Assembly (NCBI GenBank): GCA_019056805.1 | Contig: DXJG01000002.1 | Span: 39,855 to 103,854 of the forward strand | Length of the DNA: 64,000 nucleotides | Direction of reading: 5' to 3' | From: Candidatus Baldrarchaeota archaeon | GTDB lineage: Archaea > Asgardarchaeota > Baldrarchaeia > Baldrarchaeales > DXJG01 | Shown: positions 10,981-25,389 of the stretch, one piece after another | Numbering within the stretch: the stretch's first letter is position 1 | Layout: each line of letters starts with the position of its first letter | Notes under the pieces: model-generated | Seen by the model: the letters and a program-made list of their open reading frames with translations, nothing else | Told to the model about the DNA's origin: nothing | Database searches by the model: none | Made by a program: the position numbers and the translations under genes

Positions 10981-12066
10981 TTGCCTAAATTTCTATTCAA
11001 ATTTCAGGTGCCAAAAATGGACGAGTATGCATTATTGCCGAAAAAAAACTTTGATGAATTAGTAAAGCGATTCACAAATAGTTTTCAGATATATGGACCC
11101 ACGGAAAAAGACGGAAAGTTTTCTTTTGATATTATATCGGACCCGTCAGAGCTTAGATTAGATATAAGTGGGGTACCAATACTTCCACCTAAAAAAATAC
11201 TTTTCCCCCCAGAAGAAGTTCTTTTCACGTATGAAATTATCAGTAACGATAATGTTAAAATTAATGATCCTCTAGATGAGATAAAAAAGAAAAAACAAGT
11301 CTTTATTGGAATTAGACCTTGCGATGTCCAAGGTCTAATTTTGCTAGATAAGGTACTTATGGATAAAACACCGGATCCTTATTACGTAACTCGCAGAGAA
11401 AATACGATAATAATCTGTATAACTTGCGATAATCCAGCTGAGTATTGTTTTTGCAATTTTACTCGAAGTGGACCGTTAATCAAAAAAGGATTTGACTTAC
11501 TACTTACTGATATCGAATATGCTTATTTTGTTGAAATTGGTAGTAAAACAGGAGAAAACATTGTAAACTCCAATTTAGACTTGTTTCAAAAAGCATCAAA
11601 GGAGGATCTTACTAAAAGAAATCGAAAAATACACGAAATCGAGGAAAAAATGTCAAAAATTCGATCAGCAAACCTTGATGAGTTATATCAGAAAATTACA
11701 AGCATTTTTGATAGTAGCTTATGGGACGAATATGGAAAGAGATGCCTTGCTTGTGGAAAATGTAATTTTACATGCCCTACATGTCGCTGTTTTGACGTGT
11801 ATGATGAGTTAGATTTAACGCTTAAAAAGGGTAAAAGAACAAGAAAATGGGATTCGTGTCATTTTCTTAGTTTCACTCAAGTTGCTGGAGGAGAAATTTT
11901 CAGAAAAGAGAGAACATCCAGGGTTAAACAAAGAATATACGATAAATATTGTTATCCCGTAGACGAGTTTGGAAGTATTTTCTGCGTAGGTTGTGGTCGT
12001 TGCATACAAGTTTGCCCCGCTGAGATTGACGTAAGGGAAATTCTTAAAAAAATCATAGGGATGTAA
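10981..12066 (+). CDS. hydB: Sulfhydrogenase/group 3b [NiFe]-hydrogenase beta subunit (4Fe-4S)
   Basis: GIRPCDVQGLILLDKV...CITCDNPAEYCFC...CLACGKCNFTCPTCRCFDVYDE...CVGCGRCIQVCPAEID; first gene of the hydBGDA order. Confidence 0.88.
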   Translation: MPKFLFKFQVPKMDEYALLPKKNFDELVKRFTNSFQIYGPTEKDGKFSFDIISDPSELRLDISGVPILPPKKILFPPEEVLFTYEIISNDNVKINDPLDEIKKKKQVFIGIRPCDVQGLILLDKVLMDKTPDPYYVTRRENTIIICITCDNPAEYCFCNFTRSGPLIKKGFDLLLTDIEYAYFVEIGSKTGENIVNSNLDLFQKASKEDLTKRNRKIHEIEEKMSKIRSANLDELYQKITSIFDSSLWDEYGKRCLACGKCNFTCPTCRCFDVYDELDLTLKKGKRTRKWDSCHFLSFTQVAGGEIFRKERTSRVKQRIYDKYCYPVDEFGSIFCVGCGRCIQVCPAEIDVREILKKIIGM

Positions 12067-12067
12067 A

Positions 12068-12892
12068 ATGGAAAACTTGTATATCCCAAACATAGCGATA
12101 ATAATAGAAACTAGAAAAGAAACTCCGGACATAAAAACATTTAGACTGAGCTTCAAAGATAGGGAGTTTCAAAGAAAGTTTATTTTTAAACCAGGTCAGT
12201 TCATCGAGCTATCTGTCTTTGGGTATGGTGAAGCGCCTTTCTCGATTTCTTCTTCACCAAACCAACATGATTACTTTGAATTAACCATAAAAAGAGTCGG
12301 AAACGTTACAAGTGCGCTTTTCAAGTTAAATAATGGAAGCGCAGTTGGAGTACGAGGACCTTTCGGAAACGGTTTTCCAATACAAGAACTTGAAAACAAA
12401 AATATACTATTCATCGGTGGTGGAATAGGTTTAGCACCGTTAAGGTCACTCATAAATTTTGTTCTTTCAGGCCGTGAGAAATACGGAGACTTAACGTTAA
12501 TGTATGGAGCGAGAACTCCAAAAGATATAGTATTCAAAGAAGAAATAGAAACATGGAGAAAACATATAGACGTTCATCTAACCGTTGATGTGGGCGACGA
12601 AACATGGAAAGGAACAGTAGGAGTTGTAACAGTATTATTTAAAGAAGTAGATGTCGATCCAAAGGATACTATTGCCGTAATGTGCGGTCCGCCTATAATG
12701 ATGCACTTTGTAACAAAAGAACTCTTAAAATTAGGGTTCCCGGAAAATCAAATAATTCTGTCTCTTGAACGATTAATGAAATGTGGCATAGGAATATGCG
12801 GCCACTGCAACATAGGAAGGAAATACGTGTGTAAACACGGCCCTGTTTTCACCTATAAAGAAACTAAAGATTTCTTAGAGTCGGCTATATAG
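12068..12892 (+). CDS. hydG: Sulfhydrogenase gamma subunit (FAD/NAD(P)-binding)
   Basis: FKPGQFIELSVFGYGEAPFSISSSP, FIGGGIGLAPLRSLI, C-terminal CGIGICGHCNIGRKYVCKHGPVF. Confidence 0.88.
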   Translation: MENLYIPNIAIIIETRKETPDIKTFRLSFKDREFQRKFIFKPGQFIELSVFGYGEAPFSISSSPNQHDYFELTIKRVGNVTSALFKLNNGSAVGVRGPFGNGFPIQELENKNILFIGGGIGLAPLRSLINFVLSGREKYGDLTLMYGARTPKDIVFKEEIETWRKHIDVHLTVDVGDETWKGTVGVVTVLFKEVDVDPKDTIAVMCGPPIMMHFVTKELLKLGFPENQIILSLERLMKCGIGICGHCNIGRKYVCKHGPVFTYKETKDFLESAI

Positions 12893-12903
12893 AGGGAGCT
12901 AAC

Positions 12904-13632
12904 ATGATTAATAAAAAACCTAAAGTAGGAATATTTAGCTTAGCTTCATGTGAGGGATGCATTGTACAAGTACTTAACTTAGAAGATCAAATACTGGACT
13001 TGTTAAATAAAGTTGATATTGTAAGCTTCAGAGTGTTGGAAAAGGAGAAGGAAGAAGGACCTTTCGACATAATATTTGTTGAAGGCTGTGTAACAAGTCA
13101 AAAAGACATTGAAAAAATAAGGAAGCTGAGAGAAAAATCAAAAATTTTAGTAGCACTTGGCGAATGCGCATGCACAGGTGGAAAATTTATAGTAAAGGAT
13201 TTTCAAGATAACTATAATCCATTACAATTAAAAGAAGTTCTAATTAATGCCCAATCAATTGATCATTACGTAACTGTTGATTATTATTTATACGGTTGCC
13301 CAATTGATAAAAATGAGTTCCTGGAACTTTTTAAAGCGCTCTTAATCGAGAAAATGATACAACCTAAGTCCTATAACGTTTGTGCGGAATGTATATTACA
13401 TGAGAATGCTTGTCTCATTGAAGCAGGATTACCTTGTGTAGGACCTATTACGAGGGGAGGATGTAACGCGATTTGCCCATCCGTTGGCAAAGAATGTATA
13501 GGTTGCCGTGGACTTGCTGAAGACGCAAACATAGAATCACTTATCGAAATTTTTCAAAAACACCAAATAGAAGTTCCAAGTTTCCTTAAACACCTCCAAA
13601 AAGCACAAAAAACGGAGATAAAGAGGAGGTAA
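12904..13632 (+). CDS. hydD: Sulfhydrogenase delta (small, Fe-S) subunit
   Basis: GIFSLASCEGCIVQVL, VEGCVTS, LVALGECACTGG; Cys-rich C-terminus. Confidence 0.9.
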   Translation: MINKKPKVGIFSLASCEGCIVQVLNLEDQILDLLNKVDIVSFRVLEKEKEEGPFDIIFVEGCVTSQKDIEKIRKLREKSKILVALGECACTGGKFIVKDFQDNYNPLQLKEVLINAQSIDHYVTVDYYLYGCPIDKNEFLELFKALLIEKMIQPKSYNVCAECILHENACLIEAGLPCVGPITRGGCNAICPSVGKECIGCRGLAEDANIESLIEIFQKHQIEVPSFLKHLQKAQKTEIKRR

Positions 13633-13637
13633 GCAAT

Positions 13638-14930
13638 TTGAGCAGCAACCTAATAACGATTAAAGATATTCCAAAAATTGAAGGACATCTAACTGTGAAC
13701 ATAGAACTCGAAAATAATATCATTAGAGAGCTAAGAGTAGAAGCTACGGAAGGTATCCGTATACTTGAAGAAATACTAAAGGGGAAAAATTTCAGAGAAA
13801 TACCGGACATAACAAGTAGAATGTGTGGGGTATGTCCCGTTATACATAAAGTTACATCAACTAAAGCCATGGAAAAAGCATTAGAAATAGAATTGCCCGA
13901 GAGACTTGAATATTTACGAAAAATATTAGTAATTGGGGGACATTTACAAAGCCATATACTTCACCTTTTCTTCTTCGTCCTTCCAGATCTTCTGGGATAT
14001 GAAAGTGTACTTTCGATGCTTCCAAAACACATGAATGATGTAAAAAGAGCATTAAAAATGAAAAAATTAGCAAATATTATAAGTGAAAGCATAGGTGGGC
14101 GAGCAGTTCACCCAATTACTCCCGTAATAGGCGGTTTCTCAACGCTGCCAACAAAACAAAAACTAGAAAGTTTGCTTAAAATAACAAAAGAATTTAAAAA
14201 AGAAGCTCTAGAAGGCGTAAATTTATTACTCTCACTTAAAGCACCGACCTTTGAGAGAAAAACCAATTATGTAGCAATAAACAGAGAAAGAGAGATACCC
14301 TTACTCGAGGGAAACATCTCTCTACTTAACGGTCCGAGTTTTTCGCCCGAAATGTACCAAAATTTCATAAGAGGTATAAAAGTACCATACTCAACAGCCA
14401 AACACTACGTACTTAAAAGTGATAATAATAGCTACATGGTTGGGGCATTGGCCAGACTCAATATAGGCTACAAATATCTCTCTGACACTGCTAAGGAGTT
14501 TTCGAAAACCTATGGGCTAAAATTTCCCAGTTATTCACCTTTTATGAACAACATAGCCCAAGCATTAGAAATATTACACTTTACCGATGAAGTAATCACT
14601 CTCATAGAAGATTTACTTGAAAAGCCTCCTTCAAAAAGTAAAGTTAACTTCAAAATTAAGGAAGGGGAAGGAGTGGCTGCAACAGAGGCACCTAGAGGAT
14701 TATTAATTCACCATTACAAAATAAACAATCATGGAAGAGTTGAATCAGCCAATATAATTACTCCGACAGCCCAAAACCTTAGAAATTTACAAGAGGACTT
14801 AAAAATATACGTATCTCAAATATTGAATCTTCCAAAAGACAAAATAACACTGGAAGTTGAAAAACTTGTTCGTGCTTACGATCCATGCGTCTCATGTGCG
14901 GCACGATTTTTAAAGGTAGAATTCGCATGA
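13638..14930 (+). CDS. hydA: Sulfhydrogenase alpha (large, NiFe) subunit
   Basis: L1 motif SRMCGVCPVIHKVTSTKAME and C-terminal L2 motif YDPCVSCAARFLKVEFA. Confidence 0.92.
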   Translation: MSSNLITIKDIPKIEGHLTVNIELENNIIRELRVEATEGIRILEEILKGKNFREIPDITSRMCGVCPVIHKVTSTKAMEKALEIELPERLEYLRKILVIGGHLQSHILHLFFFVLPDLLGYESVLSMLPKHMNDVKRALKMKKLANIISESIGGRAVHPITPVIGGFSTLPTKQKLESLLKITKEFKKEALEGVNLLLSLKAPTFERKTNYVAINREREIPLLEGNISLLNGPSFSPEMYQNFIRGIKVPYSTAKHYVLKSDNNSYMVGALARLNIGYKYLSDTAKEFSKTYGLKFPSYSPFMNNIAQALEILHFTDEVITLIEDLLEKPPSKSKVNFKIKEGEGVAATEAPRGLLIHHYKINNHGRVESANIITPTAQNLRNLQEDLKIYVSQILNLPKDKITLEVEKLVRAYDPCVSCAARFLKVEFA

Positions 14931-14938
14931 TTTAACAT

Positions 14939-16423
14939 CTAAAATAATAAAATCAATGTTTCAAGCAAATTTAAAACTTGTTTACCTTTTTCTGTTAATT
15001 GATAGTATTTTCTTCTTCCTTTCCATACGCTCTTTATAAGATTTTTATCTTCCAATTCATTTAGGTGCTGATAAACAGCCTGAATAGTTATATCTTTTCC
15101 CAAGGCCTTCCATATTTCATATCCATACGATACTCCTATGTCAAGAAGTTTTAAGACTTGAAGCTTCACACTTACATTTTTTCTGAAACCAATTCTCTTA
15201 CCTCTACGGATAATTGCCTCTAATACATATGGAGCCTTTAATCCACTAGCTGTTATTAAACAAACAACCCTTTCATCGTTACCGAGAGTTCCTTCATTTA
15301 ACAATTTTGAAAGAGCAGCAATGGTAGAGGCACTTGCTGGCTCAGCAAATAATCCTTCAGTTCTAGCAAGAAGCTTTTCCGCTGACATAATTTCTTCATC
15401 GGAAACTGCTACAGCTAAACCATTTGATTCTCTAATAGCTTTCAAAGCAAGGAAGCTATTAGCAGGATTTCTAACTAATATAGCTAATGCTTGCGTACTA
15501 GCTTCTTTCTCATAATATTTGTCGTTTTTTTCATTGAAAAAGGCTTTAACTATTGGAGAACATCCTTCCGCCTGAACACCAATCATGCGAGGCAACTCTT
15601 TTACGATGCCCAATTTCTTTAATTCAGTAAACCCTTTCCAAATAGAATAAATTGTTCCTCCACTCCCCATCGGGACTAAGACCCAGTCAGGGACGTCTAT
15701 TTCTTCAACTATTTCAAAAGATATAGTTTTTTGTCCCTCAAGAGTTAAAGAGTTATGTTCCGCAGTTGCATTATAAATTTTCCCTTCTCTAAGAATTTTT
15801 TCGATAAAAATTAAAGAATCATCTAATGTTTCACCCTTTTCAATTACTTTCGCATTGTAAATGAACATTTGGGCGAGTTTTCCAATATGAGTGGCCTTAG
15901 GTACAATAATTGTTGCATAAATATGTGCTTTTGCACAGTAAGCAGCAATTGATGCACCAAGATTACCATTAGATGCACAAACTATTTTATTATAACCGTA
16001 ATCTAGAGCTTGAGAAACCATTAAAGCAGCAGCTCTGTCCCTAAAAGAATTTGTAGGGTTTAACGTTTCATCTTTAAGAAACAAAAATTTCATTCCTACT
16101 TTCTTTGCTAAGTCCTCTGCAACTTTAAGCGGGGTTTTCCCTTCCCCTAAAGTTACTCTTTTTTGTATTTTAGGAAAAACCTTTTCATATCTCCAAATTC
16201 CACGATCTTTAAGATTTTTAAAATTGAAATCAATTTTTTCATATTCGTAAATGTATTCTAATAACATACCACATTCTCTACATAGATAATTAACTCCTAT
16301 TGGATCAAAGACACGTCCACAACTCGGACATTTCAAAGTATACATCATAAATGCTTCAACTCCACGAAAACTATTAATTGAAATAATCCCACATTTTTTA
16401 AGTCTATTTGTTATAGGATTCAT
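14939..16423 (-). CDS. Threonine synthase-like PLP fold protein fused to a C-terminal PadR-like winged helix
   Basis: N-terminal zinc ribbon CPSCGRVFDPIGVNYLCREC, threonine synthase core LGEGKTPL..LFLKDETLNPTNSFRDRAAAL..CASNGNLGAS, then LKLLDIGVSYGYEIWKALGKDITIQAVYQHLNELEDKNLIKSVWKGRRKYYQLTEKGKQVL. Confidence 0.85.
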   Translation of the reverse strand: MNPITNRLKKCGIISINSFRGVEAFMMYTLKCPSCGRVFDPIGVNYLCRECGMLLEYIYEYEKIDFNFKNLKDRGIWRYEKVFPKIQKRVTLGEGKTPLKVAEDLAKKVGMKFLFLKDETLNPTNSFRDRAAALMVSQALDYGYNKIVCASNGNLGASIAAYCAKAHIYATIIVPKATHIGKLAQMFIYNAKVIEKGETLDDSLIFIEKILREGKIYNATAEHNSLTLEGQKTISFEIVEEIDVPDWVLVPMGSGGTIYSIWKGFTELKKLGIVKELPRMIGVQAEGCSPIVKAFFNEKNDKYYEKEASTQALAILVRNPANSFLALKAIRESNGLAVAVSDEEIMSAEKLLARTEGLFAEPASASTIAALSKLLNEGTLGNDERVVCLITASGLKAPYVLEAIIRRGKRIGFRKNVSVKLQVLKLLDIGVSYGYEIWKALGKDITIQAVYQHLNELEDKNLIKSVWKGRRKYYQLTEKGKQVLNLLETLILLF

Positions 16424-16438
16424 TTAGGTGAACATTTA

Positions 16439-16990
16439 ATGTCGATCTTTCCCGACAATGAAGACGCCGAGTTAAAAAGACTTTCCTTCAAATTCAAGAA
16501 TATTAATGTAAAAGTTCGAATACTCGAAGACATACCACAACTATTTTTAGAAGGGAAGAGTATAGGGCCCCTGAAAAAAGATGATATCTTAGAACTAAGG
16601 CTTTGGCAAGCTATACCGCTAATAGAAGAAGGAAAAGCTAAACTAGAAGAGTTTCCAATTAAAGTATCATATACTGATATTCATAAATTTGTATGGAAGG
16701 AGACGCAGACACCTGAAATTCAAGAATTAAAAAATATTTCATATATAGGGCTTAAACAACGGGAAAAGTTAATGAAAATGTCAAGTAATGACATCGAGAA
16801 GTTTAAAACAGCGTTAAGAGATCTTATCACTGTAAGAACGAGAAAAATCATTAAATTATCTATGCAAGATTCAGAATTAATATCGTCTCTTAAACCATTA
16901 TTACCAGAAGAAAAATTACTTTACGAAAATCTCTCAAAAATATTATCTATTTGGAAACGAAGGATGTTAGAAGGAGAAGAATATGACTAG
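16439..16990 (+). CDS. GINS complex subunit (Gins23-like)
   Basis: Short B-like then A-like domain order; overlaps the mcm start by 8 nt, a common archaeal gins-mcm arrangement. Confidence 0.75.
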   Translation: MSIFPDNEDAELKRLSFKFKNINVKVRILEDIPQLFLEGKSIGPLKKDDILELRLWQAIPLIEEGKAKLEEFPIKVSYTDIHKFVWKETQTPEIQELKNISYIGLKQREKLMKMSSNDIEKFKTALRDLITVRTRKIIKLSMQDSELISSLKPLLPEEKLLYENLSKILSIWKRRMLEGEEYD

Positions 16991-19900
16991 CATGAAAGTT
17001 GAAGGAATATTTGACCCCATCGGAAGATTTGAAGATTTTATTAAAAGTTATAGAACCGAAGAGGGTATTTACAAATATCGTAGCATGCTTCAAAAATTAT
17101 CATTAACGGGAAACAAATCACTTGTAATAGATTTTGATGATTTATTAAGATTCGACCCAGAACTTGCAAAAAGAACACTTGACGATCCAGAAGATTACAT
17201 TGAAGCAGCTTCAAAAGCAATAAAAAATGTCATGGTCATAGAGGATCCTGATTACGCTCAAAAAATAGAAAAATTCCATCCAAGATTCAAAAACATCCCT
17301 AAAAAAATATCACTAAGACAAATAAGATCTCACCATATAGGCCAACTCGTAGCTATAGATGGTATAATAACAAGAGCAAGCGAGGTTAAACCACAACTAA
17401 TTGAAGCTGTTTTTGAATGCCAACGATGCCATGAAAAAATGGTTATCCCCCAAGAAGAGGGAAAATATGTACCACCTGTTCAATGTGTAAATCCAACATG
17501 CAGAAGAAAAGGCCCATTTAAACTAATAGTTGAAGAATCAAAGTTCATAGACTGGCAAAAAATACGGGTACAAGAAAGACCTGAAGATCTACCACCAGGT
17601 CAACTCCCTCGCTTCATCGATGCATATCTTAAAGACGATTTAGTAGATATTGCCAGACCAGGAGACCGCGTAACAGTAATAGGCATATTAAAAACCTCAC
17701 CAGAATTTGGACAACGAAGAGGAAAACTAACAACATTCAGAGTATTCATAGAAACAAACTACGTAGAACTAACCGAGAAAGAAGCAGAAAGACTAGAAAT
17801 CACACCAGAAGAAGAACAAAAAATACTAGAACTAGCAAAAGACCAATGGATACACAAAAAAATAATACGATCCATCGCACCCTCAATATACGGCTACGAC
17901 GACATAAAAGAAGCAATAGCACTCCTACTATTCGGAGGAGTACCCAAAACACTCCCAGACGGAATGAGAATCAGAGGAGAACCAAACATACTCCTAGTAG
18001 GAGACCCAGGAACAGCAAAAAGTCAACTACTAAGATACGTCGCAAGAATAGCCCCAAGAGGAATCTACACATCCGGAAAAGGATCCACCGCAGCAGGACT
18101 CACAGCAGCAGTAATAAGAGACCCAGAAACAGGAGGAATGAGCCTAGAAGCAGGAGCACTAGTACTCTCCGATCGCGGCGTCGCGTGTTTACATGAGGAG
18201 TCAAAGGTTTTAATCGATAATAGAATAGTTAACATAGGAAGTCTTTTCGATGAGCAACGAAAATTTAAGGCTCGATCTGGAAACGAAGAAGTTGAAATAT
18301 GCGAATTAAATACAAATACGGTTTCTATCGACTCTAAGCTTAAAACAATATCTTCAAGATCTTTATTAATAAGAAGAAAGAAGTATAAAGGCGAGATACT
18401 CGAAATAACACTAGCTTCTGGATTTAAAGTGAAAGTTACTCCCGATCATAAACTTCTAGACGGAAATACATTGGAATGGAGAGATGCTAAAGAATTTAAG
18501 AAAGGCGATTTTGTAATTGCTCCTCTAAAGCTTCCTGAGAATAAGGAAAACATATATCTTCTTGACATTATCCCAGACAATTGGCTCGTCATCCTCGGAA
18601 AAGAAGAAAAGATGGAACTCAAAAGAAAAGTACTTGCTATTTATAAAAGTTTGAGCAAATTTAACAAAAAATACGGTATAACAAAAGATTTTCTTTCTGG
18701 TAGAAGTCAAATAAAGGTCGGTAAACTGAGAAAAATATTAAAAGACCTAGGATGCTATGAGGAATGGAAAAATAAATGCCTTAAATATGGTAGAAAAGCT
18801 TCAGGAGAAATGTTAAAAGTTAATAAGATAACTCCGGAGCTAGCATATTTTCTTGGATTTATTTACGGCGATGGCGATGTTAAAATTTCGCACAGAAGAT
18901 CAAGAATATCAATAACACAATCGTTGAAAAACAGAAAACAAATAGAACGTCTTAAGAAGATGTTTCAAAGTTTTTCACAAAGGAAACTTGGAGAGTATAG
19001 AAGAAAAAGTGTAAGTTTAATAAGAGGGCAAAGAGTAGAAAGTGAAAACATCATTTTATACGCTAACTCTAATTTATTAGCATACATTTACAGCTATGTA
19101 GTCGGAGAAGGGCTGAAAAATCTTTTGAAACTGCCTGATGAAGCTTTAAAGGCATTTATCGCAGGCTGCTTAGATTCAGATGGATGTATTTCAGTCAAGA
19201 GAGGGAGAAAATCGGATAAAATCTATGAAACCGTACACATAGAGTTTCAACTATCAAAGAATGAAGAGGAAAACAAAGCGTTTATGCTTGCCCTAAGACG
19301 ATTTGATTGCTTCGCGAAACTTATAAGAGATAAGAGGATAAATAAAATTATAATAACCGGAAGAGAAGATGTTAGTCGACTTCTAAACGCTATTAAAAAA
19401 TACAGTGTCAAAATTAAAACTATCCCTACTAGAAAACATTTAGTCTCTTCTCTTAGCGATAAACTTCCAAACACTCCAGTTGCAAAAATAAGTACCCACA
19501 TAATATCCTCCGTAAATAAATCTATCTTGCTTAAAAAAGGTATATGGAGTACTCTCTACGCCTATAAAAATAAAAGATATCAACCCTCCAGACAACAACT
19601 TCTAAAAATCAAAAATGAAATTTTCGACTTCTTGGATGAAAAGCTACGAAATCAAATAGAACTACTAACATCCCGAGACTACTTTCTAGACAAGATAGTT
19701 GAAATAAAAACAGAGAAATACTCAGGATACGTCTACGATCTTTACGTTCCAAAATACCATAACTTTGTATGTGACGGAATTATAGTGCATAATTGCATCG
19801 ACGAATTTGACAAAATGAACCCGCAAGACAGGGTAGCCATCCATGAAGCGATGGAGCAGCAGTCTTATCATCCATCCTTTGAAATTACTTTGGCAGATGG

Positions 19901-22229
19901 AGCCAAGGTTAAAATCGGGGATTTCGTCGATGCCCTTTTCGAACAATTTCCAGATAGAAAAATAGATGGAATAGAATGCGAAATTCTTCAAATATCAGAT
20001 CTAAATATTGAAATTCTTACCACGGATTTTGATAAAATATTTAAAACAAAAATTAACAGAGTTAGCAGACATAAAGCACCAAGTCAATTTGTAAGAATAC
20101 TATATTCAAATGGTAGAGAGATACTTGTAACTCCAGAACATCCCATATTCGTTTTTGAAAATGGAGAAATTAAAACTATAAGTGCAGATAAATTAAAAGT
20201 TGGGTCCTTTGTTCCGGCAGTTGAAAAAATCGAGTTTAAGGGGAGTTACAAACTAGATACCGATGCGGGTAATGGAAGAAAAAAGGTTATACTCCCGGAA
20301 GTAATACAAGTTCCAATTGCTAGATTTTTGGGCTACTATGCGGCTGAAGGTTATTCCTATAATGGGGCCACTGCAGAAATTGGATTGAGTAATACAAATC
20401 AAGATATAATTTTAAACATGAAATCTGTTGTGGAAGAAGCTTTCGGAATAAGTCCAATTGACTATGTTGATGTAAATAGAACACTACGTATCGTATCTAA
20501 GTCTCTTTACAACTATATGTCTAAAAACTTTCCAGAATTAATGAAAAGAAGTACTGATAAACGAATTCCACAAAAAATATTTGTAGCAGGTAAAAGGGAG
20601 AGAATAGAGTTTTTAAAGACAGCCTTTGAAGGAGATGGATCCATTGAAAGTGAAGCAATTGCTTATTCAACCTCTTCAAAAGGTCTTGCCGAAGACTACC
20701 AGGACTTGCTTTTAACTCTTGGAATACATTCTCGAATATGCAAAGATGTTTATGATTTACCAAAAGGGCAATTAAAACGATACCGTTACAAAGTCTACAT
20801 AACTGGAGATAGCCTGAAAAAATTTGTAGACATTGTCATTCCTGAGCTTAAGTCACACGAAAAACTCAAAAAACTTGTTGAGAGGAGTGAAAGAATTAAC
20901 AGAAAGCACGATGTTTTACCACCGTACGTTGGAACGATGATAATAAAATGTCTAAAAAAGCTTGGCATGCCTTATAACGGTTACTTTAACGAACATATAA
21001 ACGGAAATTACGGAATAACAAGAGAAGTTGTGAATAGATATTTGAATATCATCGAAAGCAAGATCAAAGAACTTGAAAAAGATATCAGAAATATAAATGA
21101 TCTGCGAAAACTAAGGCAAACAATTGGTTATTCTCAAGCTAAAGTCGCAAAACTGATTAATGTAGCAAGAAGTACAATTGACTACATGGAAAGAGGCGGT
21201 TACGACTCAGAGAAAAGAAATAAACTGATACACGAGTTTAAAACGGCAGTATTAAAGGAAATTGAGGAAACAAAAGAAATAGTCAATAAGATCAAAAAGT
21301 TAAAGAAATTTAGATGGCTAAGAGTAAAAAACGTAGAAATTGTAGATAACTGTGGAGAATTAAAAACAGAATGGGTCTATGATGTTACAGTGGAGCCAAC
21401 AAGGAATTTCATAAGTCATGGACTTATACTTCACAATACAATTAGTATTGCCAAGGCTGGTATTATTGCTACTCTTAATGCGCGTACGGCTATTTTGGCT
21501 GCTGCTAATCCTAAGCTTGGTAGGTATGATCCTTATAGGCCTCCGGTGGATAATATAAATCTTCCACCGACAATTTTGTCTCGTTTTGATTTGATTTTTA
21601 TTTTGACGGATAGGCCTAGGGTGGAGGTAGATAAGCAGGTGGCTGAGCATATTCTTGCTTTGCACCAGATGAGGACTGTGGAGCCGCCGATACCTCCTGA
21701 TCTTCTTCGAAAATATATTGCATATGCTAGGAAAAATGTTCATCCAGTGTTAACTCCTGAAGCTGCACAAAAAATTGAGCAGTTCTATTTGGAGCTCAGA
21801 AGTGTAGGTGAGGCTCCAACGTCTCCTGTACCGATAACAGCAAGGCAGTTAGAAGCTTTGATTAGATTAGCTGAGGCTCATGCAAGGATGGCTCTCAGAG
21901 ATAAGGTAACTGTCGAGGATGCTGAGGAAGCAATACGTCTCATGAAGCTGTCCTTGCAACAAGTAGGAATTGATAGTGAGACAGGTCAACTTGATATAGA
22001 CCTAATAATGACAGGACACAGTAAATCGCAGAGAGATAAGATGGAAAAAATATTAGATTTAATAGACGAATTAGGAGAAGAACCAGACAAAGCTGTTCCA
22101 ATATCTAAACTCATTGAAAGAGCAAGCATAGAAAACATTGATGAGGATTTCGTTAAAAGAGCTGTAGAACGAATGAAAAAGGAAGGCATACTCTTCGAAC
22201 CAAAGCCTGGCTATGTCAAAAAAGCTTAA
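16983..22229 (+). CDS. mcm: Replicative helicase MCM, precursor with two inteins
   Basis: CQRCHEKM Zn-binding region, Walker A [13 protein letters not shown], split Walker B [27 protein letters not shown], C-terminal winged helix. Confidence 0.96.
   Translation: [1748 protein letters not shown]
18186..19793 (+). mobile_element. Intein 1 of MCM (536 aa) with LAGLIDADG endonuclease
   Basis: Starts [20 protein letters not shown], block B [10 protein letters not shown], DOD motifs [14 protein letters not shown] and [15 protein letters not shown], ends [22 protein letters not shown] followed by Cys+1. Confidence 0.94.
19863..21437 (+). mobile_element. Intein 2 of MCM (525 aa) with LAGLIDADG endonuclease and an embedded XRE-like HTH
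   Basis: Starts [23 protein letters not shown], block B [13 protein letters not shown], DOD motifs [15 protein letters not shown] and [14 protein letters not shown], ends [22 protein letters not shown] followed by Thr+1. Confidence 0.94.
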
Positions 22230-22248: not shown

Positions 22249-25200
22249 ATTAAAATAAAAGAACTGAATATACCTCAAAAAGTGAAAAAAATATTTCTTT
22301 CACAGGGAATAACAAGTTTATATCCCCCACAAGAAGAAGCTATCAAAAGGGGCGCTCTTAACCATGAAAACCTAGTTTTAGCTATACCAACAGCATCTGG
22401 GAAAACTCTTGTAGCAGAACTAGCAATGCTAAAATCGATAATTGAAGAGGGAGGTAAAGCCCTATATTTAGTGCCCTTAAGAGCTTTGGCCAACGAAAAG
22501 TATGATGAATTTAAAAAATACGAACAAATAGGAGTAAAAGTAGCAGTCTCTACAGGCGATTATGATTCATCAGATAAATGGCTCGAAAACTATGATATTA
22601 TAATTTGCTCCGTTGACTATAACGAACCTATAGTTATCAAGGAAAACGGGGTAGTAAAAAGTATTAGAATAGGAGAGTTCGTAGATAAATTAATGGAAAA
22701 ATCAAATAAAATAACTTTTACAAATGGATGTGAAGTTCTAGATATTTCGGACCTTAACTATGAAACTTTAGCATTTGACCCTCAAGACTACAGTATAGGC
22801 TTTAAAAAAATTAGCAAGATAATTCGACACAAAATAACAGAACCACTCTACAAACTATACCTTGAGACCGAAAGAGAAATAACCGTAACAAGCAGTCACA
22901 GTGTTTATGTCCTTGAAAATCTGAACATAAAAGCAAAAAGGGTATCCGAAATCCAAGTAGGAGATTACGTACTTATTCCTCGAAGACTCCCCATCCAGGC
23001 CATTGACACCAAGTCGAAAATAAATCCTTTTACTTTTACACAAATACCAGAAACACATCCAGCTTGTATGCTACCAGCAGATCAAGTAATTTCAATATTA
23101 AAACACTTAAACAATAAATTATTTACTCACTTTACAGAAAGAATCAGCAGAGAACATATTCTCAACATGTTAAATTCCATAAAAATCAAAATTCTCGATA
23201 TACTAACAAAACACAAGAAACTTAATAGTAGAGATATATCCTCACTTTTAAAGATTCACCACATCAAAATAAACCCTTATCTACGATTTCTACTGAAAAA
23301 AGGATTAATAAAAAGGAACGAAGACAGCAATGATCCCTTCTATAGTATATCCAAAAAAGGATTAGCCCTACTTGAAAAAATTAAAAAATTAAAAAGAGTC
23401 TTAAATTCAGATTTCGCATTTGCAAAAGTTAAGAAAATTGTCCAAGTATCCTCTTCATCAAACTATGTGTATGATGTATCTGTTCCAGGTTGCGAAAATT
23501 TCATCGCTGGGCTTGGCGGGGTTATATGTCACAATACAAATGAGAAAGCAGATTCGCTTCTACGACACCATTCCCCATGGCTTAGTAAACTTACCGTGAT
23601 AGTTGCCGATGAAATCCATCTAATTAATGATCCCCATAGAGGCCCAACTTTAGAAGTAGTGCTAGCTAGACTGCGGCAAGTAAATCCAAATGCTCAATTT
23701 TTAGCTTTAAGCGCAACAATAAAAAACGCAGAAGAAATTGCAAACTGGCTAAACGCTAAACTAGTACTAAGCAATTGGCGACCAGTAATTCTAAAAGAAG
23801 GAATATATGATGGAGAGATTATCGAGTTTAATGATGGCACCGTAAAAAAACCTAAAAGATTTGACAGTAATCCCGTAGTTTCACTCGCTATAGATACAGT
23901 GTACGATGGAGGACAATCTCTTATTTTTCTCGGCACTCGCAGATCAGCCGTAAGCATGGCAACAAAAACAGCAAAAATCTTACCAAAACTTTTGTCAAAA
24001 TCATTGCAAAGGACACTTGCAGAAGTAGCAGACGAAATTCTGAGGAGAGGAACCAGAACACAGCAAAGTGAGAAATTGGCCGAACTAGTTAAGCGAGGTG
24101 TTGCTTTCCACCATGCTGGTCTACACTACGAGCATAGAAAAATAATTGAAGACACTTTCAGACAAAATATTATAAAAATAATTTGTGCAACACCGACTTT
24201 AGCCGCTGGAGTAAATCTTCCAGCTCGACGAGTCATAATAAGAGATTATTACCGCTATGAATCAGATTTAGGTCGTTACCCTATTCCAATATTAGAATAT
24301 AAACAACAAGCAGGAAGAGCGGGAAGACCAAAGTATGACAAAGTTGGAGAGGCTATATTGATAGCTAAAAGCGAGGAAGAAAAAAGACAACTATTCGAAA
24401 CCTACATATTTGGCGAACCCGAAAAAATCTGGTCAAAACTTGCAAATGAACAAGCACTAAGAACACATGTTCTGTCAACCATCTCCGCGGGATATGCAAA
24501 CAGCGAAAAATCTCTTTTAAAATTTATAAATGAAACATTTTACGCCTATCAATATGATCCCGAAGATATAAGATCTGTTATAAGAAAGATTTTGAACTTT
24601 TTAACTATTGAAAAACTTTTAGTGAAAACAAATCAAACATTCTTACCAACACCATTAGGTAAAAGAACATCCGAGCTTTACATCGACCCCCTCACAACTG
24701 TGACTATACGTGAAGGCATATTAAACGCTAAAAAAGAAAAGATTACCCCTCTATCTATTTTACACCTGATTTCTCATACTCCTGATATGGTAAAATTATA
24801 TCTTCGTCGTAAAGATTACCAAAAATTCATGGAGATCGTAGATTTACATCACAGTGAATTCTTAGTAGAGGTACCAGATTATTTAACTCAACCCACTGAA
24901 TACGAATGGTTCCTTTCAGAAGTTAAAGTAGCTCAACTTCTACAAGACTGGATAGATGAAAAAACAGAAGACGAAATACTTCAAAATTACGGGATAGGAT
25001 CAGGAGATCTTCTCAGAATAGTTGAAACGGCAGATTGGCTCCTTTATGCTACTGAAGAAATAGCAAAAATAATTAAACGAGACGACTTAATTTCGGAGAT
25101 ATGGAAAATACGGCAAAGAGTAAAACATGGCGTAAGAGAAGAATTATTGGAACTAGTTCGTCTTAAGGGAATTGGAAGGGTAAGAGCAAGAATACTTTAT

Positions 25201-25389
25201 AGATACGGATTCAAATCCATTTTCGACTTACAAAAAGCAACAACAAAAGAACTACTATCCTTACCATTAATTGGGCCGGAAATCGTCAAAAACATAAAAA
25301 AACAAATCGGTGGAAATATCACAGAAAGTGATATAGCATTACTAAAAGAAGAAGAGAAAAAACAAAAAAGACTAACGGACTATAGTTAA
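22249..25389 (+). CDS. hel308: Hel308-type helicase precursor with an intein; start probably ATT at 22249
   Basis: IKIKELNIPQKVKKIFLSQGITSLYPPQEEAI..AIPTASGKTLVAELAML..YDIIIC|TNEKADSLLRH..VADEIHLI..QQAGRAGRP, C-terminal HhH. The ORF track gives GTG 22282. Confidence 0.93.
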   Translation: MKIKELNIPQKVKKIFLSQGITSLYPPQEEAIKRGALNHENLVLAIPTASGKTLVAELAMLKSIIEEGGKALYLVPLRALANEKYDEFKKYEQIGVKVAVSTGDYDSSDKWLENYDIIICSVDYNEPIVIKENGVVKSIRIGEFVDKLMEKSNKITFTNGCEVLDISDLNYETLAFDPQDYSIGFKKISKIIRHKITEPLYKLYLETEREITVTSSHSVYVLENLNIKAKRVSEIQVGDYVLIPRRLPIQAIDTKSKINPFTFTQIPETHPACMLPADQVISILKHLNNKLFTHFTERISREHILNMLNSIKIKILDILTKHKKLNSRDISSLLKIHHIKINPYLRFLLKKGLIKRNEDSNDPFYSISKKGLALLEKIKKLKRVLNSDFAFAKVKKIVQVSSSSNYVYDVSVPGCENFIAGLGGVICHNTNEKADSLLRHHSPWLSKLTVIVADEIHLINDPHRGPTLEVVLARLRQVNPNAQFLALSATIKNAEEIANWLNAKLVLSNWRPVILKEGIYDGEIIEFNDGTVKKPKRFDSNPVVSLAIDTVYDGGQSLIFLGTRRSAVSMATKTAKILPKLLSKSLQRTLAEVADEILRRGTRTQQSEKLAELVKRGVAFHHAGLHYEHRKIIEDTFRQNIIKIICATPTLAAGVNLPARRVIIRDYYRYESDLGRYPIPILEYKQQAGRAGRPKYDKVGEAILIAKSEEEKRQLFETYIFGEPEKIWSKLANEQALRTHVLSTISAGYANSEKSLLKFINETFYAYQYDPEDIRSVIRKILNFLTIEKLLVKTNQTFLPTPLGKRTSELYIDPLTTVTIREGILNAKKEKITPLSILHLISHTPDMVKLYLRRKDYQKFMEIVDLHHSEFLVEVPDYLTQPTEYEWFLSEVKVAQLLQDWIDEKTEDEILQNYGIGSGDLLRIVETADWLLYATEEIAKIIKRDDLISEIWKIRQRVKHGVREELLELVRLKGIGRVRARILYRYGFKSIFDLQKATTKELLSLPLIGPEIVKNIKKQIGGNITESDIALLKEEEKKQKRLTDYS
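22609..23535 (+). other. Intein in Hel308 (309 aa), no recognisable LAGLIDADG endonuclease
   Basis: Starts SVDYNEPIVIKENGVVKSIRIGEFVD, block B EITVTSSHSVYVLENL, block F/G YVYDVSVPGCENFIAGLGGVICHN followed by Thr+1; the extein rejoins as DIIICTNEKADSLLRH. Confidence 0.92.

Follow-up and report, generated by a model that had tools for sequence, protein, structure and literature searches.

What is to be made of a protein that carries the name of an enzyme, lacks the catalytic lysine of that enzyme and ends in a winged helix? The question is raised by a minus-strand open reading frame (16423-14939, 494 aa, a single polypeptide) in the window, by which we mean the whole stretch of 64,000 nucleotides that was analysed (G000:C9:39855-103854, where G000 is the window's own genome and C9 the label of the contig). 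A sequence-only reading of this locus had inferred an archaeal regulator in which a fold type II threonine synthase (ThrC) domain acts as a ligand sensor. That inference is supported here by a second thrC in the genome, by the co-occurrence of lysine loss with the fusion and by structure prediction, and it is extended to a likely ligand and regulon, vitamin B6, by way of an ECF S gene, pdxS-pdxT and a shared operator. The window protein is very probably a defunct enzyme that has become a gene switch; the regulator appears to sense vitamin B6 and, in many archaea, to govern how the vitamin is taken up or made, both the ligand and the DNA binding being inferred.

Gene model and domain architecture

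The features discussed below are collected in Table 1. The upper boundary of the gene had previously been placed at 16360, where there is no start codon; translation likely begins at the ATG at 16348 (giving 469 aa), since homologs align from there and the open frames of relatives are only a few codons longer.

Table 1. Coordinates of the features in the window and, where a contig label is given, elsewhere in its genome
Feature	Position	Strand	Basis or remark
Regulator CDS, 469 aa (zinc ribbon, ThrC-like PALP domain, linker, PadR-like winged helix)	14939..16348	-	ORF, Pfam, model
Zinc-ribbon Cys pairs C7, C10, C23, C26 (residues 7-26)	16271..16330	-	Invariant or nearly so in the family
ThrC-like PALP domain, fold type II, residues 65-366	15251..16156	-	Pfam PF00291, E 2e-75; Foldseek
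Arg103 codon AGG at the Schiff-base Lys site (residue 128 of the long ORF)	16040..16042	-	Alignment to Lys61, Thermus thermophilus ThrC
Asn129, equivalent of T. thermophilus Asn87, PLP pocket	15962..15964	-	Kept in 94-100% of each fused group
Gly-rich loop G228-S-G-G-T232, equivalent of GNAGN 187-191	15653..15667	-	Alignment to ThrC
Thr366, equivalent of T. thermophilus Thr317, PLP pocket	15251..15253	-	Kept in 95-100% of each fused group
Linker, residues 369-391	15176..15244	-	Predicted disordered, pLDDT under 50
PadR-like winged helix, residues 394-468	14945..15169	-	Pfam PF03551, E 4e-11; PDB PadR chains; model
ECF S gene of the window genome	G000:C11:249869-250654 (L215:9870-10655)	-	Matches 4HZU_S, E 2e-14
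MCM and Hel308-like helicase genes with inteins	16983-22229 and 22282-25389	+	Replication cluster with Cdc6, RFC subunits, GINS

The fusion of a threonine-synthase-like domain to a PadR-like winged helix, first proposed from the letters alone, is borne out by Pfam, by the predicted structure and by Foldseek. Specifically, PF03551 scores 43 bits against a Pfam cut-off of 27 and PF00291 is also above its own cut-off, while PadR chains in the PDB match the winged helix with a best E of 2e-5. The AlphaFold2 model (mean pLDDT 87) has a confident ThrC fold, a disordered linker and a separately folded winged helix, whose helices and wing strands mostly reach a pLDDT of 77-94 and whose wing is followed by a single long C-terminal helix (residues 453-468). 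Threonine synthases account for every top Foldseek match in the PDB (E 3e-33 and down), and identity to solved ThrC structures is about 35-42%. The NCBIfam family NF004170, 'threonine synthase', spans the entire protein including the winged helix (456 bits, cut-off 421), and the cut-off of TIGR00260 is exceeded as well.

The Schiff-base site and the PLP pocket

The protein carries the motif NPTNSFRDR, in which the Schiff-base Lys of the SFKDR motif is absent and Arg stands in its place, as the sequence-only reading had noted; alignment to Lys61 of T. thermophilus ThrC confirms the loss. The same Arg is common to two genomes of the same genus, whose proteins are 76% identical, and it is the commonest residue at this site in 119 distinct fused proteins, so the Arg codon is not a sequencing slip. 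Among those 119, the site is occupied by Arg in 60, Lys in 24, Leu in 16, Ile in 14, Ser in 2 and Met, Asn or Val in one each. Lysine is therefore absent in 95/119 fused proteins and present in 57/58 unfused homologs, which is the co-occurrence of lysine loss and winged-helix fusion that had been proposed as a check; the fused proteins that have Lys are found only in Lokiarchaeia.

The remainder of the pocket presents a different picture. In T. thermophilus ThrC, we take Asn87 and Thr317 to lie in the PLP pocket and the GNAGN loop (187-191) to bind the PLP phosphate. The equivalents of Asn87 and Thr317, together with the first glycine of the phosphate loop, are conserved at 94-100% across all fused groups; the rest of that loop is altered in fused proteins, most of all in Lokiarchaeia. 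T66, G68, A194 and D323 (in the T. thermophilus alignment) are constant in true ThrC, lie outside the PLP contacts and are altered in every fused group. Because the PLP positions are conserved while other ThrC-constant positions have changed, the pocket looks to have been retained for PLP and not for catalysis.

Family, distribution and the Lokiarchaeial members

The same end-to-end architecture exists in Asgard archaea, Bathyarchaeia, other Thermoproteota and a few MAGs labelled otherwise. A fused homolog is present in about 85/228 Asgard genomes (a count compiled by hand from the homolog search) and, at E 1e-98, in 47/349 genomes of Thermoproteota (Bathyarchaeia and others). The protein of the nearest named relative, a Candidatus Baldrarchaeota (Asgard), is 76% identical. 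Most of these genomes are metagenome bins, genes were called by a simple script and near-identical genomes inflate some of the counts.

Elsewhere in the window genome there is a ThrC-type gene whose NPTGSFKDR motif is intact (C9:609832-610995), the second bona fide thrC that the sequence-only reading had suggested looking for, and there are several other PALP enzymes. On four Bathyarchaeial contigs (L059, L061, L062, L104), the fused gene has a true thrC with its Lys 2-5 kb away, on the other strand.

A quick tree search, made without an external outgroup, needs only one change of fusion state to account for the fused proteins. It places the Lys-bearing Lokiarchaeial proteins in a single clade with support 100, nested among Arg proteins, which suggests that their Lys was either regained or retained with many losses elsewhere; the tree does not settle whether Lys gave way to Arg or the reverse in this group. 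These proteins (loci L019-L022, L068-L070, L072, L074, L075, L079) share the remaining substitutions typical of fused proteins, and their genes likewise come with the ECF S neighbour and the operator. In 9/14 Lokiarchaeial genomes searched, no further ThrC-type protein turned up, just threonine-dehydratase-like matches, and the Lys-bearing fused proteins may therefore be bifunctional, or some fused proteins could still be enzymes. A search for homoserine kinase, bearing on the same point, gave just weak partial matches in all but one genome. Homologs that combine Lys with the same fusion, which together with ThrC activity would have refuted the regulator reading, thus do exist in Lokiarchaeia, while their ThrC activity is unknown.

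This bears on the view that the window protein is still an enzyme, performing the threonine synthase reaction or another fold type II reaction with a different Lys or with none, its DNA-binding tail being secondary. The residues found at the site in the 95 proteins without Lys include some that are unable to form an aldimine, another Lys-bearing ThrC is available in the window genome, and the operator described below tracks the presence of the fused protein; against these points can be set the Lys kept in Lokiarchaeial members, the two NCBIfam cut-offs exceeded and the name that NCBIfam gives to the family. We consider such an enzyme very improbable, and continue with the regulator.

Gene neighbourhoods and the linked transporter

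The surroundings of the gene in the window are as follows. A four-gene NiFe-hydrogenase operon (10981-14930, plus strand; Fe-S subunit, flavin reductase-like protein, small and large subunits) is convergent with the regulator and ends 8 bp from its stop codon, an arrangement kept in the same genus only. The MCM helicase gene is interrupted by two inteins, of which one has a LAGLIDADG domain, and the Hel308-like helicase gene beside it by another. Control of these neighbours (GINS, MCM, hydrogenase operon) by the regulator was entertained and dropped, as there is no operator in the window and the neighbours are not kept in most relatives.

Across the family, a different association emerges. An ECF S-component gene or pdxS/T lies within two genes of the regulator in 30/41 of the fused loci first collected (ECF S in 28, pdxS and pdxT in 2), versus 0/38 unfused thrC loci (Fisher p 6e-13). 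At 40 further Asgard loci, ECF S is within two genes in 28, with one more found by translated search, and pdxS-pdxT in 6, with a seventh locus three genes off; the two sets share some genomes. In Thermoproteota, the S gene adjoins the regulator in 23/30 short loci. The S gene or pdxST may be downstream of the regulator, convergent or divergent, and the association is therefore not one inherited gene row. The lineages without linkage among the 40 Asgard loci are Baldrarchaeota, f6, f12 and G049, and each of them has the operator before ECF S or pdxS elsewhere.

As neighbour and operator target, pdxS-pdxT take the place of the S gene in f24, G024, G003, G063, f6 and f12; G003, from the same order as the window genome, has a regulator-pdxS-pdxT row. 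In G001, from the same genus, an ECFS-pdxS-pdxT row (L216) stands behind the same operator, although the contamination of this bin is 9%. The window genome is without pdxS, and the pdxS and pdxT that follow the S gene in G001 are missing after its own. Furthermore, in the 30 Asgard genomes where regulator and S gene lie side by side, pdxS is absent throughout, which is what one would expect if they import B6. Taken as a whole, the genomic context points to vitamin B6.

The linked S components belong to PF07155. A profile built from 25 of them has a sole strong match in the PDB, 4HZU chain S (HmpT/PdxU2), with E 4e-29, the next match having 0.08. The S components are of the same family as this chain and keep most of its ligand contacts: the contact residues Tyr120, Asn140 and Gln143 are invariant in the archaeal S components and Glu41 is Asp or Glu, whereas His84 is replaced by an invariant Lys and Trp76 mostly by Tyr or Phe. 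The S gene on contig C11, whose product matches the same chain, is a candidate for the vitamin B6 S component of the window genome, transport being inferred. Pyridoxamine was identified from HmpT/PdxU2 by mass spectrometry, and the assignment of substrate rests on that and on simulation (PMC4860826); the archaeal S component could import another pyridine or pyrimidine. B6 transporters have been described as unknown in most species (PMC9997740).

One such substrate would be the thiamin precursor HMP, in which case the regulator would belong to thiamin metabolism. HmpT was originally named for HMP (PMC4860826), and an AIR-synthase-family gene with weak similarity to ThiL follows the S gene in Bathyarchaeia, but the substitution of pdxS-pdxT for the S gene in several lineages, the row that joins both in G001 and the PLP-enzyme fold of the sensor leave this reading with very little credit. 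The Bathyarchaeial gene (about 335 aa, weakly like HypE as well) occurs after the S gene in 11 loci (L048, L051, L052, L054, L056-L058, L060, L065, L066, L077) and might encode a kinase for the imported vitamin.

A shared operator

Palindrome scans identified a recurring 22-bp dyad, TATACAAGTTNNAACTTGTATA, that precedes ECF S genes and pdxS, its variants being TATATAAGT..., TATATAGGC... and TAGTATAGTTATAACTATACTA; the half-site of the palindrome is TATAcAAGTT. The same kind of site is found before the S gene in Thermoproteota (e.g. TTAAAGTTTAAACTTTAA). For scoring, a half-site model was trained on ECF S promoters only, from a training set picked by eye. It was run on MAG sequence in which genes had been called by simple means, and 1042 further promoters from these loci provided the comparison. 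Among 20 held-out pdxS promoters (some from the same genomes in two collections), 15 scored above the 99th percentile of the 1042 and 10 above all of them. The five misses comprise two genomes without the regulator (G012, G030), two pdxS genes that stand second, behind another gene of the row, and one weak site (p 0.013). A few of the ECF S and pdxS promoters score low, some of these having doubtful start codons or being second in an operon.

The presence of the operator follows that of the regulator. Counting only genomes of clear status, the pdxS operator occurs in 12/14 Asgard genomes with the regulator versus 0/15 without it (Fisher p 2e-6), and 19 more pdxS loci from genomes without a demonstrated regulator gave zero sites above threshold. 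The window genome (1.92 Mb) has a single perfect match, TATACAAGTTAGAACTTTAATA at C11:250705-250726, 72 bp upstream of the ECF S gene, and with a looser core nearly all perfect matches in 22 genomes are at S-gene or pdxS promoters. Matches in a one-mismatch scan were no commoner than in the reversed control, therefore only perfect matches were used. No operator lies within the window, and the promoter of the regulator itself is without one in the window genus.

These targets also bear on the nature of the ligand. The same regulator might respond to threonine, phosphohomoserine or an amino acid-PLP aldimine, with B6 control matching cofactor supply to amino acid metabolism; the sensor domain does have the threonine-synthase fold, and the Lys-bearing thrC of the four Bathyarchaeial contigs is only a few genes away. 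However, the genes adjoining the operator in distant lineages are those of a B6 transporter and of PLP synthase and not, as a rule, of threonine biosynthesis, and several positions conserved in true ThrC but not in contact with PLP are altered in all fused groups, which makes a ligand from amino acid metabolism decidedly unlikely in our judgement. A B6 ligand remains the preferred reading.

With respect to the better TATA-like match, the operator is downstream in 48 promoters and upstream in 5, with 14 ties, the search ranges on the two sides being unequal in length. It is usually 16-24 nt from the TATA centre; the window genome has a perfect TTTATATA whose centre lies 16 nt ahead of the operator. 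A protein bound downstream of the putative TATA would therefore cover the start site, which favours repression. The opposite sign, activation of B6 genes, has a bacterial precedent, namely apo-PdxR, which activates pdxST with PLP opposing it (PMC5320631), yet with the operator so placed we regard an activator as unlikely, if less so than the other alternatives.

Proposed mechanism

We are rather confident that the protein is a one-component, PLP-sensing repressor of B6 uptake or synthesis derived from threonine synthase; PLP binding, DNA binding and the sign of control are inferred, without any experiment, from the computed domains, Lys loss, linkage to ECF S and pdxST, shared operator, co-presence of operator and regulator, and HmpT-like S component. 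More specifically, a one-component transcription factor would have evolved from threonine synthase, and its enzyme-like domain, with the Schiff-base Lys gone and the rest of the PLP pocket kept, would probably bind PLP (or a close B6 vitamer) reversibly and non-covalently. Without the Lys, PLP would be able to leave again and the domain would have no enzymatic activity, as would fit a sensor of free PLP. The PadR-like winged helix, as a dimer, is predicted to bind the 22-bp palindrome. When B6 is plentiful, PLP would act as co-repressor and the complex on the operator would shut the B6-importing ECF S gene; in lineages that make PLP, the repressed target would be pdxS-pdxT instead. When B6 is short, the apo-protein would release the operator. 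For the window genome, the model predicts a single target, namely the ECF S gene of contig C11.

Significance

Neither the fusion nor an archaeal B6 regulator was found described in the open-access literature (subscription journals and preprints were not covered, and priority is uncertain); the only archaeal thrC fusion found there is cysH-thrC, a different one (PMC11237513). As far as the literature searched shows, archaeal control of vitamin B6 is undescribed, and the role of sensing and controlling B6 is so far known only from unrelated bacterial proteins. If the proposal is true, it would (i) provide candidates for both the regulator and the transporter, along with the operator, (ii) represent a second evolutionary origin of a PLP-responsive switch, from another enzyme fold and with the catalytic Lys discarded and (iii) be a main system by which Asgard archaea, Bathyarchaeia and some of the Thermoproteota control B6, naming their B6 transporter.

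Comparison with known systems

The regulator resembles several known families, each in part. With ThrC (NF004170/PRK05638) it shares the fold type II ThrC fold, but the catalytic Lys is replaced and the genetic links are to B6 genes. In the NF004170 members examined, Arg takes the place of the catalytic Lys, and most of their genes sit next to that of a B6-type transporter; to call this family 'threonine synthase' is probably an error of annotation, and its members in these archaea should not count as evidence of threonine synthesis. With the PadR family it shares a winged helix above the Pfam PadR cut-off and a dyad-symmetric operator, but here the winged helix is a C-terminal domain on a pseudo-enzyme in place of a small protein with an N-terminal wHTH, and the PadR order of N-terminal wHTH followed by dimerisation helices is not met.

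The closest parallel in function is provided by the MocR/PdxR regulators, which have been reported absent from Archaea (PMC5320631). Both combine a winged helix and a PLP-enzyme domain in one polypeptide, and both are linked to pdxST and B6 transport genes and use palindromic or repeated operators, the linkage being met here via the shared operator. The differences in fold and domain order pointed out in the sequence-only reading are upheld by the domain tests. It is probable that these proteins constitute an archaeal transcription-factor family that is convergent with and unrelated to MocR/PdxR, in which a Lys-less ThrC serves as a reversible PLP sensor acting on a palindromic operator for B6. 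In PdxR, the winged helix is of the GntR type and comes first, and the PLP-enzyme domain is a fold type I aminotransferase; in the archaeal protein, the winged helix is PadR-like and comes last, and the PLP-enzyme domain is a threonine synthase of fold type II, from which, in most archaeal members, the Schiff-base Lys has been lost.
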